A stretch of DNA of 57,840 nucleotides from Flavobacteriales bacterium. Lineage in GTDB: Bacteria; Bacteroidota; Bacteroidia; Flavobacteriales; UBA7312. The translations under genes and the position numbers were made by a program. The number at the start of each line of letters is the position of its first letter. The first letter of the stretch is position 1. Under the pieces are notes generated by a model. The model saw nothing but the letters and a program-made list of their open reading frames with translations. It did not search any database and was not told the origin of the DNA. Positions 4,713-13,763 of this stretch are shown here, piece after piece. Where the stretch lies: positions 1-57,840 of the forward strand of contig JADHMO010000010.1 of assembly GCA_016779995.1 (NCBI GenBank). The letters are read 5' to 3'.

Positions 4713-7340
4713 TTACAGTTTTATCCTTAGCTCACCCGTAGTAGTGCGATAGACATCACCAGCACTAAGCCCACCAGTACCCGCTGCAGCATCATCGGCA
4801 TAGACAGGTAAATTGGTCAAGTTAAGCTCACTAGCTTTGACTGTACCATTGACATCTAAACGTTCTGTGGGTGTAGTAGTGCCTATGCCAACAAATCCTG
4901 AGGCTGCATTACCATAAAATAATGCATCAGTAGTTTCAGAATAAGCTTGTCCCTCTATTTCAAACTCGCAAGCATTGAAAACAGCATCTCCATTTGAAGT
5001 ATTTACGCCGTCAGGGAATATATATCGCACTTCATCAGCTACTACATTGGGTACGTCAGCAGTAGTCCAAGCCGAAGGCCCTGATGCAGCTGCTATAGTA
5101 CCACTAGTATACACGTGAACTCCATCTTTATATAATCTAAATTCACCACCACCAGTTCTTAAATTCCAACTTCCTGTTCCAGAAGATTGTGCTTGAATTC
5201 GAATTGAAGTGATGTAGTATTTAGTATTAAAGGTGTAGCCAAAGCCCCAATCTATATCGGTTGTAGTGCGATTTAAGTGGAAAGAACCTGCTCCACTTTC
5301 TGTAGCGTCGTTAAATAAAGTTGAATTAGCACCATATTGTCGTGTGGCATTATATAACCCAAAATTGGCATTATTATATGCCTCGTCGTTAGTGACTATT
5401 TCTTGTGCCGTGCCAGTCGGACTAGCTTCTTGACCAAAATATTGAACATCACCACCATCATAAATACGCATTCGTTCGGTATCATTGGATTTGAAAACTA
5501 AATCTTGGGCATCGGTAGTTCCTAAGAAATTAGTATCAGCAATAGACGCATTTCCTCTTAAATCCCAAGGAGATAGATTCATTTTTTTTAATAGTCCATC
5601 ACTTCCTACGACTACCATTTCATCACTCGTTGAACCAGTTGTCATTTCAGTTATTTTAGCATCTCCTGCTACGTGCAAATTTGCAGAAGGTGTTTTGGTG
5701 CCAATACCTACACTTTTGGCAGATACGTCTGCAAAAAATACATCAATAGCATCATCATCCGATTGTACTCCCATTATCTCCCACTCACAGGCATTGAAGA
5801 CGCCATCTCCTCCGGGTGTAGTGTTCCCAACACCGAAACGATAGGTTATATGGCTAGCTTCTACGTTTATGGAGTCAAAGGTGGTCCATTCTGAGGCTGA
5901 AGTTGGTGATGTTATGACAGGGCTAGTATAAACTAATTCGTTGTATTTATACAGGCGAAATCTAGCAGAACCTATGTGTTCATATCCAGTACCATCTGAC
6001 TGGGCTCGAAAACGAAGTTTAGTAATGTAATAGTTTTTAGATAAGGTATACTCAATACCCCATGGGTCTGAACTCTGTACACGTGTGGCGTGGAAGGAGT
6101 TTGTGCCTCCTTCAATAGCGCCATTAAATAGGGTAGATTCAGCACCATTAGAATGGGTAGCATTGAAATAACCAAAACTAGAACTGCTAAAAGCTTCGAA
6201 ATCTGGGATGATTTTACCTTCACTACCAATCGGTAAACTGGCTAGGACGGATACATCGCCATAGCGTTGGGCTATATTAGTGGTATCTTCCTTATCTACT
6301 GACCAAGCATCTCCGTCCCCTGTTTCTGACCTTGGCGATTTTCTTAAAATGCCTTCCGAATTAACCAACACAACTTCATCCTCGTCCAACCCTACTGCCA
6401 TAGAAGTTATTTTCACTCCTCCATCTACATGCAATCGTTCTGTTGGGGTGTTTGTACCTATTCCAACCCTATTTAACTCAACATCGGCAAAAAATATGGT
6501 AACATCAGGATTTATTTCCTCGACATAAATTTCCCATTCACAGGCATTGAATCTGTAGTCTCCTCTATTGGTTGTTTTTCCTGCTTCAAAGATGTAGCGA
6601 ATTTCATCGGCAATGACATCTGGAAACTCATTTGGTGTATACTTCGATACCCCATCGGCAGAGGCAATTTCATCACTAGTATAGACTAGTGTTCCTCCTC
6701 TATACAGTTTGAACTTACCACCACCCGTTCTTTCGTAGAAATTTCCATCGTCTCCTTGAGCACGAAAGCGAGTACTCACAATGTGGTATGCCTTAGTGAA
6801 TTTGTAACCAAAGCCCCAGTCGGCAGTACTTCCTGGTGTTTTATCGCAGTGAAAAGAATTGGCTGCCTCCTCTACATCTTTATCAAACATAGTGATGATA
6901 CCCCCAAAATCAATCGAACTATTATATGTGCTAACACTATTGGTGTTAAGTGCTTCAAAACCGGGGATTACTTCTTTACCCTCGCCTGAAGCAATGGAGT
7001 CTTCATTGAATACTTGCACATCACCGTGTCTTATGGCTAAGCCAACGGTATCTTCTTTGTGAACTGACCAAGCATCGCCATCCATTCCTACACAATCCCA
7101 TTCGGCATCGCTTCTAAAAAAGACGCAATTGCTATCGGTATTGTACACAATCATTCCAGCTTTCCAATCGCTTTGAGCATTGATTTGTGCCATAGTTAAT
7201 CGTGGTAAATACAAAGCCTTATCGGTAGATTGTAGTTCTATGATAGACCTAGGGTCTGGGTTGTTTGTTCCAAAACCTTTTTGTGCGTATGTTATCTGTG
7301 TAAAAGCTAGTAGCGTAGCTAAGAAAAGTAATTTTTTCAT
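4713..7340 (-). CDS. Large modular secreted surface protein, tail-fibre-like repeats
   Basis: The function is unknown. The 875-residue product starts with a signal peptide (MKKLLFLATLLAF...TYAQ) and a segment common in Bacteroidota surface proteins (IIELQSTDKALYLPRL...IVYNTD). Three related modules of about 230 residues follow. Each contains the pattern YN...NSFH...WG(F/I)(G/E)Y...YxI(V/T)...RxRAQ...FRLY...VYTS, a segment ending FNACEWEI or FNACEFEI, and a link VGIGT(N/K/T)TPxxxLxVxG. The C-terminus is the frequent end GLSAGDVYRTTTGELRIKL. The VGIGT...P linkers resemble those of trimeric fibre proteins. I see no T9SS sorting domain and no catalytic motif. A TATATTTG promoter lies 26 nt upstream of the ATG. 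The gene is bracketed by the 78-bp repeats, which is unlike any neighbour. Confidence 0.85.
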   Translation of the reverse strand: MKKLLFLATLLAFTQITYAQKGFGTNNPDPRSIIELQSTDKALYLPRLTMAQINAQSDWKAGMIVYNTDSNCVFFRSDAEWDCVGMDGDAWSVHKEDTVGLAIRHGDVQVFNEDSIASGEGKEVIPGFEALNTNSVSTYNSSIDFGGIITMFDKDVEEAANSFHCDKTPGSTADWGFGYKFTKAYHIVSTRFRAQGDDGNFYERTGGGKFKLYRGGTLVYTSDEIASADGVSKYTPNEFPDVIADEIRYIFEAGKTTNRGDYRFNACEWEIYVEEINPDVTIFFADVELNRVGIGTNTPTERLHVDGGVKITSMAVGLDEDEVVLVNSEGILRKSPRSETGDGDAWSVDKEDTTNIAQRYGDVSVLASLPIGSEGKIIPDFEAFSSSSFGYFNATHSNGAESTLFNGAIEGGTNSFHATRVQSSDPWGIEYTLSKNYYITKLRFRAQSDGTGYEHIGSARFRLYKYNELVYTSPVITSPTSASEWTTFDSINVEASHITYRFGVGNTTPGGDGVFNACEWEIMGVQSDDDAIDVFFADVSAKSVGIGTKTPSANLHVAGDAKITEMTTGSTSDEMVVVGSDGLLKKMNLSPWDLRGNASIADTNFLGTTDAQDLVFKSNDTERMRIYDGGDVQYFGQEASPTGTAQEIVTNDEAYNNANFGLYNATRQYGANSTLFNDATESGAGSFHLNRTTTDIDWGFGYTFNTKYYITSIRIQAQSSGTGSWNLRTGGGEFRLYKDGVHVYTSGTIAAASGPSAWTTADVPNVVADEVRYIFPDGVNTSNGDAVFNACEFEIEGQAYSETTDALFYGNAASGFVGIGTTTPTERLDVNGTVKASELNLTNLPVYADDAAAGTGGLSAGDVYRTTTGELRIKL

Positions 7341-7492: not shown

Positions 7493-8782
7493 TTACAATC
7501 CGAAAGTTGCTTTCACCTTATCCACATAATCCAATTTTTCCCAAGTGAAAGTTTCTAAGGTCATTTCCTTAGTTTGCCCTTCTACATTGAAAGAGAACGT
7601 TTTAGTTTGTGGTGTTCTTCCCATATGTCCGTAGGCTGCTGTCTCTTGATAGATAGGGTTTTTAAGTTTTAGACGTTCTATGATAGCTGCCGGACGCATA
7701 TCAAAAATGTTTTCTATAGCTTTAGCAATCTCCCCATCAGAAAAATCTACTTGGGCAGTACCATAAGTATCTACAAAAATTCCCATGGGTTTAGCTACGC
7801 CAATAGCATAGGACACTTGCACCAATACTTGTTTGCACAATCCTGCAGCTACTAAATTTTTAGCAATATGACGAGTAGCATAGGCTGCCGAACGGTCTAC
7901 TTTAGAAGGGTCTTTTCCTGAAAAAGCACCTCCACCGTGTGCACCTTTACCACCATAAGTATCCACAATAATTTTTCGTCCTGTTAGCCCTGTATCGCCA
8001 TGCGGACCGCCAATTACAAATTTACCAGTAGGATTAACGTGGTATTTTTCGTCACCAAACAATTGTTGTTGGCGTTCTTCCAATTGAGCTTTTACTCTAG
8101 GGATAAGAATGGTTTTAACATCTTTCTCTATTTGCTTTTGCATACTGTCTTCAGCTTCCTTTATTGCGCTTGGGCTCGAGTCTTTTGGCAAAATGAACTC
8201 ATCGTGCTGGGTAGATACTACAATAGCCTCGATGCGAATAGGCTGGTGGTCGTCGCTATATTCTATAGTAACCTGAGATTTAGAATCAGGTCTTAGGTAG
8301 GTCATCTCTTTACCTTCACGTCTAATTTCTGCCAATTCTATTAGAATACGGTGCGATAAATCTAGGGCTAAAGGCATATAGTTGTCGGTTTCGTCTGTGG
8401 CATAGCCAAACATCATACCTTGGTCACCAGCACCTTGTTCTGCATGCAAACCTTTGTTGGCTTCTACGCCTTGGTTGATGTCTGCCGACTGTTCGTGTAT
8501 AGCAGAAATTACACCACAGCTATCGGCATCAAATTGGTACTCCGATTTGTTGTAGCCAATCTTGTGAATAACCTGTCTTGCTATCTTTTGTACATCTACA
8601 TAGGCCGAAGTCTTGACTTCTCCACTAAGTACGGTAAGACCCGTAGTTACTAGAGTTTCACAAGCCACTTTAGAGTCTTGGTCTTGGGCTAAAAAATTGT
8701 CCAGTAGAGCATCTGATATTTGGTCAGCTACTTTGTCTGGATGTCCTTCTGATACGGATTCTGAGGTGAAAAAATAAGCCAT
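7493..8782 (-). CDS. metK: S-adenosylmethionine synthetase MetK
   Basis: MetK makes SAM from methionine and ATP. The 429-residue protein shows the family motifs in order: [11 protein letters not shown] at the N-terminus (ATP/magnesium site), [12 protein letters not shown] in the central domain, the glycine-rich [13 protein letters not shown] and the loop [19 protein letters not shown]. It is longer than the E. coli enzyme (384 residues), mostly through inserts in the central domain. It is divergent from metH. Its leader carries a predicted SAM-II riboswitch (8838-8890), which would make this gene sensitive to its own product. Confidence 0.98.
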
Positions 8783-8837
8783 CTTTAATTGTCTTTATGT
8801 TAAAAAATTCAAGTGAAGATAGCCGATGCGATTCATT

Positions 8838-8890
8838 CCTGTTTTAGCATTTTTTAGGAGTGGTTGCAATCAGCCAAATTTATCCACTTG
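8838..8890 (-). ncRNA. SAM-II (SAM-alpha) riboswitch upstream of metK
   Basis: Read on the minus strand, this is an H-type pseudoknot. P1 pairs AGTGG (8884-8888) with CCACT (8859-8863). P2 pairs TTTGGC (8873-8878) in the P1 loop with GCTAAA (8843-8848) in the 3' tail. The segments ATTGCAA just before the 3' strand of P1, and GCTAAAACAGG at the end, correspond to the conserved parts of known SAM-II aptamers as I remember them, and the 10-nt spacer between P1 and P2 fits. It lies 12 nt downstream of an exact -7 promoter element and about 56 nt before the metK ATG. High SAM would be expected to lower metK expression. A covariance-model search was not run. Confidence 0.8.
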
Positions 8891-8902
8891 TTAAATCGTT
8901 GG

Positions 8903-8910
8903 CAAAATTA
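8903..8910 (-). promoter_or_regulatory. Promoter -7 element for metK
   Basis: On the minus strand this reads TAATTTTG, an exact TAnnTTTG match placed just upstream of the SAM-II pseudoknot, so the aptamer would be transcribed almost from its first bases. Confidence 0.65.
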
Positions 8911-8971
8911 GAAAAATATTTTCAAGAAAAATAATTTCATTAATTTTTTGCATTATAAATTATTTTGGGCT

Positions 8972-8979
8972 TACCTTTG
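8972..8979 (+). promoter_or_regulatory. Promoter -7 element for metH-metF
   Basis: TACCTTTG matches TAnnTTTG exactly and ends 6 nt before the SAM-I aptamer. A TTTG at 8947-8950 lies 21 nt upstream and may be the -33 element. Confidence 0.65.
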
Positions 8980-8985
8980 CACCAA

Positions 8986-9087
8986 CTTATCAAGAAAGAC
9001 GGAGGGAATGGGCCCGATGATGTCTTAGCAACCCTGACCAAGCAGGGTGCTAACTCCCACTTCGAATAGTCGAAGACAGATGAGAAT
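8986..9087 (+). ncRNA. SAM-I (S-box) riboswitch upstream of metH
   Basis: The conserved S-box core is plain: TTATCAAGA at the 5' end, GGAGGGA, GGCCCGATGA, GCAACC...GGTGCTAA and a closing GATGAG. P1 is formed by 8986-8992 with 9081-9087, with a mismatch. P3 is ACCCTG (9031-9036) with CAGGGT (9043-9048). P4 is CTTCGA (9060-9065) with TCGAAG (9070-9075). About 55 nt separate the aptamer from the metH ATG. A weak hairpin with a T-rich tail at 9121-9141 in that interval could be the expression platform. The expected effect is repression of metH and metF when SAM is high. Confidence 0.95.
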
Positions 9088-9120
9088 AATCCATTCCATT
9101 TTCAACATCTTTCATGATAG

Positions 9121-9142
9121 GTCTTAGTTAAAGACTTATTTT
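9121..9142 (+). promoter_or_regulatory. Possible riboswitch expression platform hairpin
   Basis: GTCTT (9121-9125) pairs with AAGAC (9131-9135) and is followed by ttatttt and then the metH ATG. The stem is only 5 bp, so it is a weak terminator or start-region sequestering hairpin at best. Apart from the two promoters, the two riboswitches and this hairpin, nothing else was recognised in the 360-base gap between metK and metH. Confidence 0.35.
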
Positions 9143-12100
9143 ATGAAAAAGAGCATTGAGGACATTCTACAAGAGCGTATTTTAGTATTAGATGGTGCTA
9201 TGGGTACTATGATACAGCCTTATGATTTACAAGAGTCAGATTTTAGAGGTCAGCGTTTTATTGACCACCCTTGTAACCTCAAAGGTAATAACGATTTATT
9301 ATCGCTGACAAGACCTGATATAATCAAAACTATTCACGCCGAATATTTTGAAGCTGGTGCAGATATTATAGAAACGAATACGTTTAGTGGTACTAGCATA
9401 GCCCAAGCCGATTATCAATTGGAAGGTAGTGTTTATGATATCAATTTTCAATCCGCTAAGATTGCCAAAGAAGTGGCTACAGAATTTACTGCCAAAGACC
9501 CACAAAAACCTCGTTTTGTAGCTGGTGCTATTGGTCCTACTAACCGAACTGCCTCTTTATCTCCTGATGTCAATAATCCTGCCTTTAGAGCAGTAAGTTT
9601 TGATGAATTAAAGGTGGCCTATGCTCAACAGGTGAGTGCCTTAATAGATGGTGGGGTTGATATTTTATTAGTGGAAACCGTTTTTGATACCCTCAATTGT
9701 AAAGCGGCTTTGTTTGCTATTGAAGAAGTGTTTGAAAGCAAGGCATACCGATTGCCCATTATGGTATCTGGCACCATTACCGATGCTAGTGGTCGAACAC
9801 TTTCTGGTCAGACGGCTCAAGCCTTTCTAACTTCTATTGCTCATATTCCCTTACTTTCTGTGGGCTTTAACTGTGCCTTAGGGGCATCAGCTATGAAACC
9901 CCATATCAAAGACTTATCAGACCAATCTGATTTTTATGTGAGTGCTTATCCCAATGCTGGACTACCTAACGAAATGGGAGGATATGATGAATCGCCACAA
10001 GCTATGGCTAGTCAGCTCGAAACTTTTGTCAAAGATGGTTTGGTTAATATTGTTGGGGGCTGTTGTGGTACCACGCCCGAACACATACAGGCATTTGCTG
10101 ACATGGTCAAAAAGTATCCTCCTAGACCAAAGAAAAAACAAGTACCTTACCTAAAACTTAGTGGCTTAGAGCCTTTGGTTTATACTTCGGAAACCAACTT
10201 TTTGAATGTGGGGGAACGTACCAACGTAACGGGTTCTCCTCGTTTTAGGAAACTCATTAAAGCCGATGACTATGAAACGGCTTTGTCGGTGGCTCGTCAA
10301 CAAGTCGAGGCAGGAGCTCAAGTGATAGATGTCAATATGGACGATGGATTGATAGAAGGCCAACCAGCCATGGTGCATTTTCTTAACCTTATTGCCTCTG
10401 AACCAGACATTTGTAAAGTACCCATTATGATAGATTCTTCCAAATGGGAGATAATCGAATCGGCATTACAATGCATACAGGGAAAAGGTATTGTCAATTC
10501 TATTTCTTTGAAAGATGGCGAAGATGCTTTCATACAACGTGCCAAATTAGTGAAGCGTTATGGCGCAGCAGTTATTGTTATGGCATTTGATGAAGATGGT
10601 CAAGCCGATAATTATCAGCGTAGGATTGAAATTTGCCAAAGAGCCTATCATTTATTGGTAGAAAAAGTTGCTTTTCCCCCTCAAGACATCATCTTTGACC
10701 CTAATATTTTGACGGTAGCTACTGGCTTAGAAGAACACAACAATTATGCCCTTGATTTTATACGAGCAACGCAATGGATTAAAGACAACTTGCCACTAGC
10801 TAAAGTGAGTGGAGGTGTCAGTAATATTTCTTTTTCTTTTAGAGGCAATAATACGGTCAGAGAAGCCATGCACTCGGCCTTTTTGTATCACGCCATAAAA
10901 GCAGGTCTAGACATGGGAATTGTCAATGCTGGTATGATAGAAGTCTATGAAGAAATTCCTAAAGAATTGTTAGAACGAGTGGAAGACGTTTTATTGAATA
11001 GACGAGCTGATGCTACTGAGCGTCTTTTAGAATTTGCCGAAACCGTCAAAGACCAAAAGAAAGCGAACAAAGTCAATGACTTAGAGTGGCGTAAGCAATC
11101 GGTTGAAGAACGTTTAAAACACGCTTTGGTCAATGGTTGGATAGAATACATAGAAGAAGACACTGAAGAAGCTCGACAACAATTGGACAAACCTTTGCAA
11201 GTGATAGAAGGGCCCTTAATGGACGGCATGAATGTTGTTGGCGACTTGTTTGGTAGCGGTAAAATGTTTTTGCCACAAGTAGTCAAAAGTGCTAGAGTAA
11301 TGAAAAAGGCCGTAGCTGTTTTAGAACCTTATATGCTAGAAGAAAATAGTCAATCAACAAAAGCAGGAAAGGTCTTGTTAGCTACCGTCAAAGGAGATGT
11401 GCATGACATTGGAAAAAATATTGTGGGCGTGGTCTTAGCTTGTAATAACTACGACATTATTGATTTGGGTGTTATGGTACCTATGGAAAAAATACTAGAA
11501 GAAGCCCAAAAACATCAAGTCGATATTATTGGTCTAAGTGGACTCATTACTCCTTCATTAGACGAGATGGTACAAATAGCCAAAGCTATGAAACATCAAC
11601 AGATTGATATTCCCTTATTGATAGGTGGTGCTACCACTTCACGAGTGCATACGGCTGTGAAAATAGCACCCCATTATGACAAGGCTGTACACGTCATAGA
11701 TGCTTCTCGTTCTGTCAATGTAGCCAATCAAGTTAGCCAAGACCACTATTTTGAAGATTTAAGTAAAGAATATACCAAACTAAGGGATAATTACTTGAAT
11801 CGTAAAACAGCAAAAACCTATCTTCCTATTGATATTGCTAGACAAAATAAACTAGCCATAGAGTGGAACAAAGAGGACTTATATCTGCCCAAAAAACTAG
11901 GTGTTGAGGTTTTTGATACTATTCATTTAGAGGAAATAATTCCTTATATCGATTGGACACCATTTTTTCAAAGTTGGGAATTGCACGGTAAGTTTCCAGA
12001 TTTGTTAAACGATGAGCTTATTGGTGAACAAGCACAAGAATTGTATGCCGATGCCCAAGCTATGCTTAACAACATTGTTTCTGAAAAGTGGCTTAAGGCC

Positions 12101-12793
12101 AAAGCCGTAATAGGAATATGGCCTGCCAATAGTAAGGATGATGACATTCATTTGTTTACTGACGAAAGTAGAAATGAAAAGCTCAAAGAAATTCATACTT
12201 TACGACAACAAACTCAAAAATCGGTCAAAGCTAACAACCTTGCATTGGCAGATTTTATCGCACCCAAAGACAGTGGTCTTTCCGATTATTTAGGGGCTTT
12301 TGTTTGTACAGCAGGTTTAGGAATAGAAGAACACATAAACCGATTTGAACAAGAAAACGACGATTACTCTAGCATTATGCTAAAGGCTCTTGCTGACCGA
12401 TTGGCAGAAGCCTGTACCGAATACATGCATTGGCAAGTTAGAACTAAACTTTGGGGTTATAGCCATCAAGAAGCTTTGGATAATGAAAGTTTGATTAAAG
12501 AAAAATACCAAGGAATACGCCCAGCACCAGGTTATCCTGCTTGTCCTGACCACACTCAAAAAGTTAGCATTTTTGAACTTCTCAATGCGACCAATAACAT
12601 AGGCGTTTCTTTGACGGAGAGTTTAGCGATGTATCCAGCAGCATCGGTTAGTGGTTTGTATTTCTCGCACCCTCAGTCCAAATACTTTGGCTTGGGTAAA
12701 ATACAAAAAGACCAAATTGAAAGTTTAGCACAACGCAAGGGCACAACCCTTGAAGAAGTAGAAAAATGGTTAGCACCAAACCTAGCCTACTAA
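9143..12793 (+). CDS. metH: Cobalamin-dependent methionine synthase MetH
   Basis: MetH transfers a methyl group from methyltetrahydrofolate to homocysteine through cobalamin. The 1216-residue protein contains all four classical modules. The homocysteine-binding barrel (about 1-330) has DGAMGTMI and the zinc-ligand motif GGCCGT. The pterin-binding domain (about 345-630) has [11 protein letters not shown]. The cobalamin cap and Rossmann domain (about 645-880) has [11 protein letters not shown], where the His is the lower cobalt ligand. The SAM-dependent reactivation domain (about 900-1216) has [12 protein letters not shown]. It is a full-length single polypeptide, not the split form seen in some Bacteroidota. 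The gene is under a SAM-I riboswitch and 16 nt upstream of metF, which makes its methyl donor. Confidence 0.98.
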
Positions 12794-12809: not shown

Positions 12810-13763
12810 ATGAAGATAACCAACCACTTAAAAGAAGCTCAAGAGACATTATTTTCCTTTGAGTTATTACCTCCCTTAAAGGGGCAAGGCATACAATCTA
12901 TTTTTGATGCTATTGACCCTCTTATGGAGTTCAAGCCTCCTTTTATCGATGTTACTTATCATAGAGAAGAGCATATCTATAAAAGCAAAGCCAATGGACT
13001 GTTGGAAAGAAGAGCTGTTCGTAAACGACCCGGAACAGTTGGTATTTGTGCTGCTATAATGAACAAGTATCAAGTAGATACCGTACCTCATATTATTTGT
13101 GGTGGCTTCAACAAGGAAGAAACCGAAAACGCCTTAATCGACCTGAATTTTTTGGGCATAGATAACGTCTTAGTATTGCGTGGTGATCCCATAAAATCTG
13201 AAATTTATTTTAAGCCAGAAGAAGATGGACATGCATACGCCAGTGAGTTGTTGCAACAAGTATCGAATATGAATAAGGGAATACTTTTAGAACCCGAAAT
13301 AGCCCAAGATTATAAAACAGACTTTTGTATTGGGGTGGCTGCCTATCCAGAAAAACACTTTGAAGCTCCTAATATGAAATCAGATTTACAATATTTGAAA
13401 CAAAAGGTAGATTTAGGAGCCGAATACATTGTTACTCAGTTGTTTTTTGACAATAAAAAGTATTTTGACTTTGTAAAAGAATGCCGAGCCATAGGGATTG
13501 ATATTCCTATAATACCAGGTATTAAACCCATCTCAACCAAAAAACAATTGACGCTTTTGCCACAACGTTTTCACATTGATATTCCTAGCGATTTGTCCGA
13601 TGGTATCAGCCAATGTAAAGATAATAAAGAGGCGCGTCAGTTTGGAATAGAATGGGCTATTGAACAGTGTAAAGAATTGAAGGCAAGTGGTGTGCCTTGT
13701 TTGCATTTTTATACCATGGGCAATTCTGACAATGTGTATAAGATAGCCTCAGAATTATTTTAG
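12810..13763 (+). CDS. metF: 5,10-methylenetetrahydrofolate reductase MetF
   Basis: MetF reduces methylenetetrahydrofolate to methyltetrahydrofolate with FAD, supplying the methyl donor for MetH. The 317 residues show the conserved N-terminal FELLPP, the central LRGDP with the preceding NVL, and IGVAAYPEKH in the FAD/folate barrel. The ending is a typical barrel segment, PCLHFYTMG. It is 16 nt downstream of metH and most likely co-transcribed under the same SAM-I switch. Its stop codon overlaps the convergent gldA stop in the shared tetranucleotide TTAG (13760-13763). Confidence 0.97.
   Translation: MKITNHLKEAQETLFSFELLPPLKGQGIQSIFDAIDPLMEFKPPFIDVTYHREEHIYKSKANGLLERRAVRKRPGTVGICAAIMNKYQVDTVPHIICGGFNKEETENALIDLNFLGIDNVLVLRGDPIKSEIYFKPEEDGHAYASELLQQVSNMNKGILLEPEIAQDYKTDFCIGVAAYPEKHFEAPNMKSDLQYLKQKVDLGAEYIVTQLFFDNKKYFDFVKECRAIGIDIPIIPGIKPISTKKQLTLLPQRFHIDIPSDLSDGISQCKDNKEARQFGIEWAIEQCKELKASGVPCLHFYTMGNSDNVYKIASELF

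Follow-up and report, generated by a model that had tools for sequence, protein, structure and literature searches.

SAM-II and SAM-I riboswitch aptamers in the divergent metK-metH region of Flavobacteriales

The 360 bp that separate metK and metH in a marine Flavobacteriales bacterium (UBA7312; assembly GCA_016779995.1, genome size 1.96 Mb) carry a SAM-II aptamer on one strand and a SAM-I aptamer on the other, and this arrangement of two known riboswitch families is real and conserved. We consider it likely that the region works as a divergent regulatory unit, in which two independent cis-acting OFF-switches for SAM act by a translational block at the start codon. The analysis covers positions 1-57,840 of contig JADHMO010000010.1, and this whole stretch of 57,840 nucleotides is called the window.

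Genes, promoter-like boxes and aptamers

On the minus strand metK (methionine adenosyltransferase, 7493..8782) was identified with the NCBIfam model TIGR01034 at 508.7 bits (cutoff 309.4). On the plus strand metH (cobalamin-dependent methionine synthase, 9143..12793) matches TIGR02082 and NF007024 far over the cutoff and is followed by metF (methylenetetrahydrofolate reductase, 12810..13763; TIGR00676 with 320.2 bits, cutoff 293.7). Between the metK ATG at 8782 and the metH ATG at 9143 lie 360 bp, exactly the span that the first-pass annotation had claimed. Using cmscan we located the SAM-II aptamer RF01726 upstream of metK (8834..8893, minus strand), covering model positions 1-60 of 60 with 65.0 bits (gathering threshold 44; E 2.7e-10 for the window), and the SAM-I (S-box) aptamer RF00162 upstream of metH (8984..9086, plus strand), covering model positions 1-108 of 108 with 76.2 bits (gathering threshold 44.4; E 3.8e-16 for the window). 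Each is the single match of its class in the genome. Each also follows an exact TAnnTTTG box, a promoter-like element of the -7 type: 9 nt separate TAATTTTG (8903..8910, minus strand, read 8910-8903) from the SAM-II aptamer, and 4 nt separate TACCTTTG (8972..8979, plus strand) from SAM-I. The combined divergent two-aptamer pattern has 1 match in the window with 0.00 expected.

The first-pass annotation had read the locus as two unrelated folds on opposite strands that serve the SAM-making and the methionine-making arms of one pathway, each a few bases after an exact -7 box. The Rfam and NCBIfam searches bear out both the folds and the gene identities, and its coordinates are accurate to within a few bases. 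It had also called for an Rfam search of the region, in which SAM-II scores well over threshold on the minus strand (65.0 against 44), and had named a missing SAM-II match or lost P1/P2 covariation in relatives as outcomes that would speak against it. For SAM-II the P1 covariation is kept: across 58 relatives one P1 pair covaries perfectly (U-A in 46, A-U in 12, zero broken). Five of the six presumed pseudoknot pairs are invariant in the same relatives and the sixth is G-C in 39, A/C in 15 and U/C in 4. The aptamer stands upstream of metK in 58 of 58 and the TAnnTTTG box upstream of the aptamer in 55 of 58. For SAM-I, 4 of 26 consensus pairs were changed on both sides among 26 sequences, P1 was never broken, and the aptamer lies upstream of metH in 21/21 pairs. 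Chance matches are ruled out for either aptamer by the scores, the uniqueness in the genome and the conservation.

The comparison of the locus in related genomes, likewise proposed at the outset, showed that the arrangement is conserved. SAM-II towards metK and SAM-I towards metH occur divergently in at least 21 sampled Flavobacteriales genomes including that of the window, in four families and with the aptamers 48-136 nt apart; in 20/20 relatives tblastn put metK on the SAM-II side and metH on the SAM-I side.

Several other observations concern the surroundings of the locus. Hsp90_CRE, ceN49, ncr952 and SAM_alpha were also reported by Rfam in this region, with scores far under gathering, and were rejected. 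We also rejected a plasmid origin: the only blastn matches to plasmids are short and confined to the query's metK end, with the leaders uncovered. Adjoining metK, a minus-strand frame (4713-7340) encodes an 875-aa protein with internal similar repeats and a signal-like N-terminus, which is probably secreted or surface-exposed.

Predicted alternative pairings in the two leaders

In each leader we found two alternative pairings with statistical or comparative support. That the RNAs bind SAM, that the switch works in the direction given here and that hiding the start codon is what controls expression are inferred. One transcript would begin just upstream of the SAM-II pseudoknot and run into metK, the other just upstream of the SAM-I aptamer and run into metH-metF. 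Each leader would hold, 3' of its aptamer, a switching element with two mutually exclusive partners. If SAM is missing, the element would pair with the aptamer's 5' portion (P1 strand and core), so that the aptamer is destroyed and the start codon open. If SAM is present, the aptamer would be locked and the freed element would pair at and around the AUG and block ribosome entry; SAM binding thus probably hides the start codon in both RNAs. High SAM would then lower SAM synthase as well as methionine supply, at the level of translation. The phylum Bacteroidota is said to depend little on Shine-Dalgarno pairing.

For metK the putative switching element is AUCGGCUAUCUUCACUUG (8810..8827, minus strand). 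It is complementary to the SAM-II aptamer at two places: UUCACUUG can pair with the P1 5' region CAAGUGGA (8883..8890, minus strand; partner 8810-8817) and AUCGGCU with GGCUGAU in the core. The predicted anti-aptamer duplex is found in most loci and in the window 0/200 shuffles were as good; all duplex controls used mononucleotide shuffling, and because of kinship among the loci the counts are not independent. With SAM bound the element would instead give GGCUAUCUU (8816-8824) to a helix with AAGAUGGCU (8777..8785, minus strand), which includes the metK start codon. Across 8 members of the window's family 94.4% of the cells of this helix are paired, compared to 40-54% when the partner is slid. 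One of its pairs shows compensatory change (C-G in 5, U-A in 2, A-U in 1), and the hairpin forms in 7 of the 8 leaders when these are folded without the aptamer. The covariation of the anti-aptamer pairing itself is weak in the same 8 members: of 500 shuffles, between 26 and 82 did equally well.

A further comparison comes from N20, a variable base of the aptamer (G, A or U). Of 58 SAM-II leaders, 50 form their best duplex with the base native to their own genome, against a mean of 31.9 and a maximum of 43 when N20 was reassigned among genomes, a contrast uncorrected for kinship. The relatives grouped as f64 instead have GCCAAAUC, an element of different sequence but equivalent role; it imitates the pseudoknot strand and can pair with GAUUUGGC in the aptamer loop. 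For metK of one genome (G633) no significant anti-aptamer was found (47/200 shuffles as good). The predicted probability that positions -10..+6 of the window metK are unpaired is 0.27 with the aptamer occupied versus 0.65 with it free, and over the SAM-II loci this occupied-versus-free comparison gave 18/21 (p 0.0009).

For metH the candidate element is AUCUUUCAUGAUAGGUC (9107..9123, plus strand), which is the complement of aptamer nucleotides 8985-8999 (duplex -15.5 kcal/mol, 0/200 shuffles as good) and also the 5' arm of a start-codon hairpin. This hairpin, UUUCAUGAUAGGUCUU-AGUUA-AAGACUUAUUUUAUGAAA (9109..9155, plus strand), has a predicted fold of -17.2 kcal/mol, and with the downstream part folded alone the probability of an unpaired AUG is 0.03. 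Every SAM-I leader (21 of 21) contains a stretch nearly complementary to ACUUAUCAAGAAAGA, the 5' strand of the aptamer, with 0-3 of 200 shuffles as good. In the closest relative with the divergent arrangement (G002) the hairpin differs inside its stem and is still paired there (AGGUUAUUU/AAAUAACUU compared to AGGUCUU/AAGACUU), and in another relative (L127) the hairpin passes through the AUG as GUCUUAUA-AAAU-UAUGAGAC. The two states of the window leader, aptamer-plus-hairpin and anti-aptamer, are near-equal at -50.7 and -49.6 kcal/mol; a difference of ~1 kcal/mol is what a ligand-tipped switch would need. The occupied-versus-free comparison gave 16/20 for the SAM-I loci (p 0.011); in several f64 loci the shift in accessibility is slight. 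The unconstrained fold of the window leader closes the AUG in both states (0.03 and 0.09), which leaves the duplex and the forced-fold comparison as the support for the ON state. The predicted start-codon switching has weaker support for the metH leader than for the metK leader.

A separate observation concerns the metH match of G002 (G002:C8:79029-82670, L190), which was reported with one in-frame TAG. This could reflect an assembly error or a broken gene, or the match may simply include the normal stop as its last codon.

Control mode and alternative explanations

The first-pass annotation had suggested that the two classes may differ in control mode, SAM-II being mostly translational and SAM-I mostly transcriptional. 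We found no support for this distinction, as neither leader has a terminator and both have the anti-aptamer and the start-codon-pairing alternative. The terminator scan returned no terminator-like site in either window leader, and at E <= -6 we found none in the 20 SAM-I and none in the 21 SAM-II leaders of the conserved pairs; among the 58 SAM-II leaders there was one terminator-like site. Because terminator-like structures are missing from the window and from the conserved-pair leaders, both switches are most likely translational. A split in which SAM-II blocks metK translation while SAM-I terminates metH-metF transcription at a hairpin before the AUG seems unlikely to us. It could draw on a weak terminator-like feature of the window SAM-I leader, a hairpin followed by UUAUUUU right before the AUG (-5.9 kcal/mol), and on the precedent of Firmicutes, in which riboswitch control is mostly transcription attenuation (PMC2258182). 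However, this is a short tract with an interruption, the scan does not match it, no conserved-pair SAM-I leader (0/20) reaches the terminator cut-off, and the hairpin of relatives such as L127 spans the AUG.

Each aptamer could serve its own gene or genes while the shared short promoter region adds coupling, through divergent initiation or a shared regulator, and makes one balanced unit. The tight spacing would fit such coupling (64-70 nt in all f64 loci but one, 76-90 nt in f1), as would the promoter-like boxes that stand back to back in the majority of the divergent loci. Two compact divergent promoters explain the spacing, though, and it reaches 121-136 nt in G456 and G414; the parts are also separable, SAM-II being cleanly missing from five f64 genomes in which the metK-metH region is retained. 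We therefore regard coupling as improbable. Even less credible is the idea that one of the two aptamers has decayed or shifted its ligand and no longer senses SAM. Close variants of a SAM aptamer are described as spermidine binders (PMC10853860), yet here the core positions vary little, if at all, across the related pairs, the scores are high and both aptamers stand upstream of SAM or methionine genes.

Within the preferred reading of two start-codon switches, a more specific version can be held only tentatively. Here the pair would be a selected dual-sensor unit whose members differ in affinity or folding kinetics, so that SAM-II (metK) and SAM-I (metH) respond at different SAM levels, both by start-codon occlusion. 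If so, the two leaders would determine how much SAM is made relative to the methionine supplied.

Relation to known systems and distribution

A few SAM-II examples were reported in the Bacteroides group by Corbino 2005 (PMC1273637), and the family RF01726 goes back to Weinberg 2010, who based it on Bacteroidetes and marine sequences (PMC2864571). The SAM-II of the window belongs to this long-loop family and phylum; it differs from the known cases in that it adjoins a SAM-I on the opposite strand and that its proposed platform is an anti-aptamer element which would also pair with the start codon. The SAM-I aptamer matches RF00162 over the full length and lies upstream of methionine synthesis genes. 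Unlike the attenuation typical of Firmicutes, it has no terminator platform that we could find, and a start-codon hairpin would take its place. Translational control by SAM-II in one leader is known from metA and metZ of Sinorhizobium meliloti (PMC9373788), where the Shine-Dalgarno is masked or a terminator used, whereas in the window the AUG itself lies inside the predicted helix. Tandems of SAM-II with SAM-V and of SAM-II with SAM-I/IV likewise bring two SAM aptamer classes into proximity, and a 2022 review lists same-transcript tandems with SAM-II followed by SAM-I/IV in seven cases and the reverse in two (PMC9481103). Those tandems share one transcript and one gene set; the window pair falls outside the definition of tandem riboswitches, with opposite strands, two transcripts, metK and metH as separate genes and separate promoter-like boxes.

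The survey of Barrick and Breaker 2007 found both classes in no single species (PMC2258182). In the main text of open-access papers we found no description of both classes in one genome and none of a divergent SAM-II/SAM-I pair. Rfam-annotated genome databases already contain both matches implicitly; the pairing, its lineage and the common start-codon-occlusion logic appear undescribed. What the locus would add is the proposed platform, start-codon occlusion via an anti-aptamer element. It also offers a natural setting in which two unrelated folds for one ligand stand side by side within the same cell and pathway, so that the question why a genome keeps two solutions becomes directly testable.

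Flavobacteriales genomes as a rule carry both classes, which one lineage group joins in a single divergent region. Of 296 genomes of this order, both classes occur in 165, SAM-I alone in 10, SAM-II alone in 37 and neither in 84, an association inflated by shared ancestry, so that its p-value is not to be taken literally. In a phylum-wide sample SAM-I was also present in 57 of 63 SAM-II genomes. The exact arrangement pattern was found in 25 contigs over 84,980 species, all of them marine Flavobacteriales MAGs or single-cell genomes by their titles; one MAG contributes two contigs and the species are thus somewhat fewer.

Relatives also show the loss of one sensor. Of the 10 genomes in the window's family, 8 have SAM-II and 2 have SAM-I, and the divergent arrangement is common to the window genome and G002. 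Apart from a partial match in G003, metH has no match in the other sampled family members, some of whose genomes are incomplete. The window genus's other four genomes (G006, G007, G008, G009), one of them 99% complete, are without a metH match, a pattern that suggests the cobalamin-dependent route to methionine has been lost; G008 has no SAM-II match either. As SAM-I is absent where metH is absent, its loss in this family follows that of metH. Conversely, the five f64 genomes without a SAM-II match (L157-L161) keep metK-metH and SAM-I; their metK leaders, read directly, show no aptamer core, and in 4/5 the promoter-like box TATCTTTG stays although the aptamer is missing. Since SAM-II alone and SAM-I alone are each absent in some relatives, the sensors can be lost separately.

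SAM-II and SAM-I also occur as more distant pairs. In one genome (G618; L154, 1502-2740) they lie 1.4 kb apart with a 412-aa ORF between them, which by eye is a PLP-dependent methionine/cysteine enzyme, and the other distant pairs have unrelated ORFs in between.
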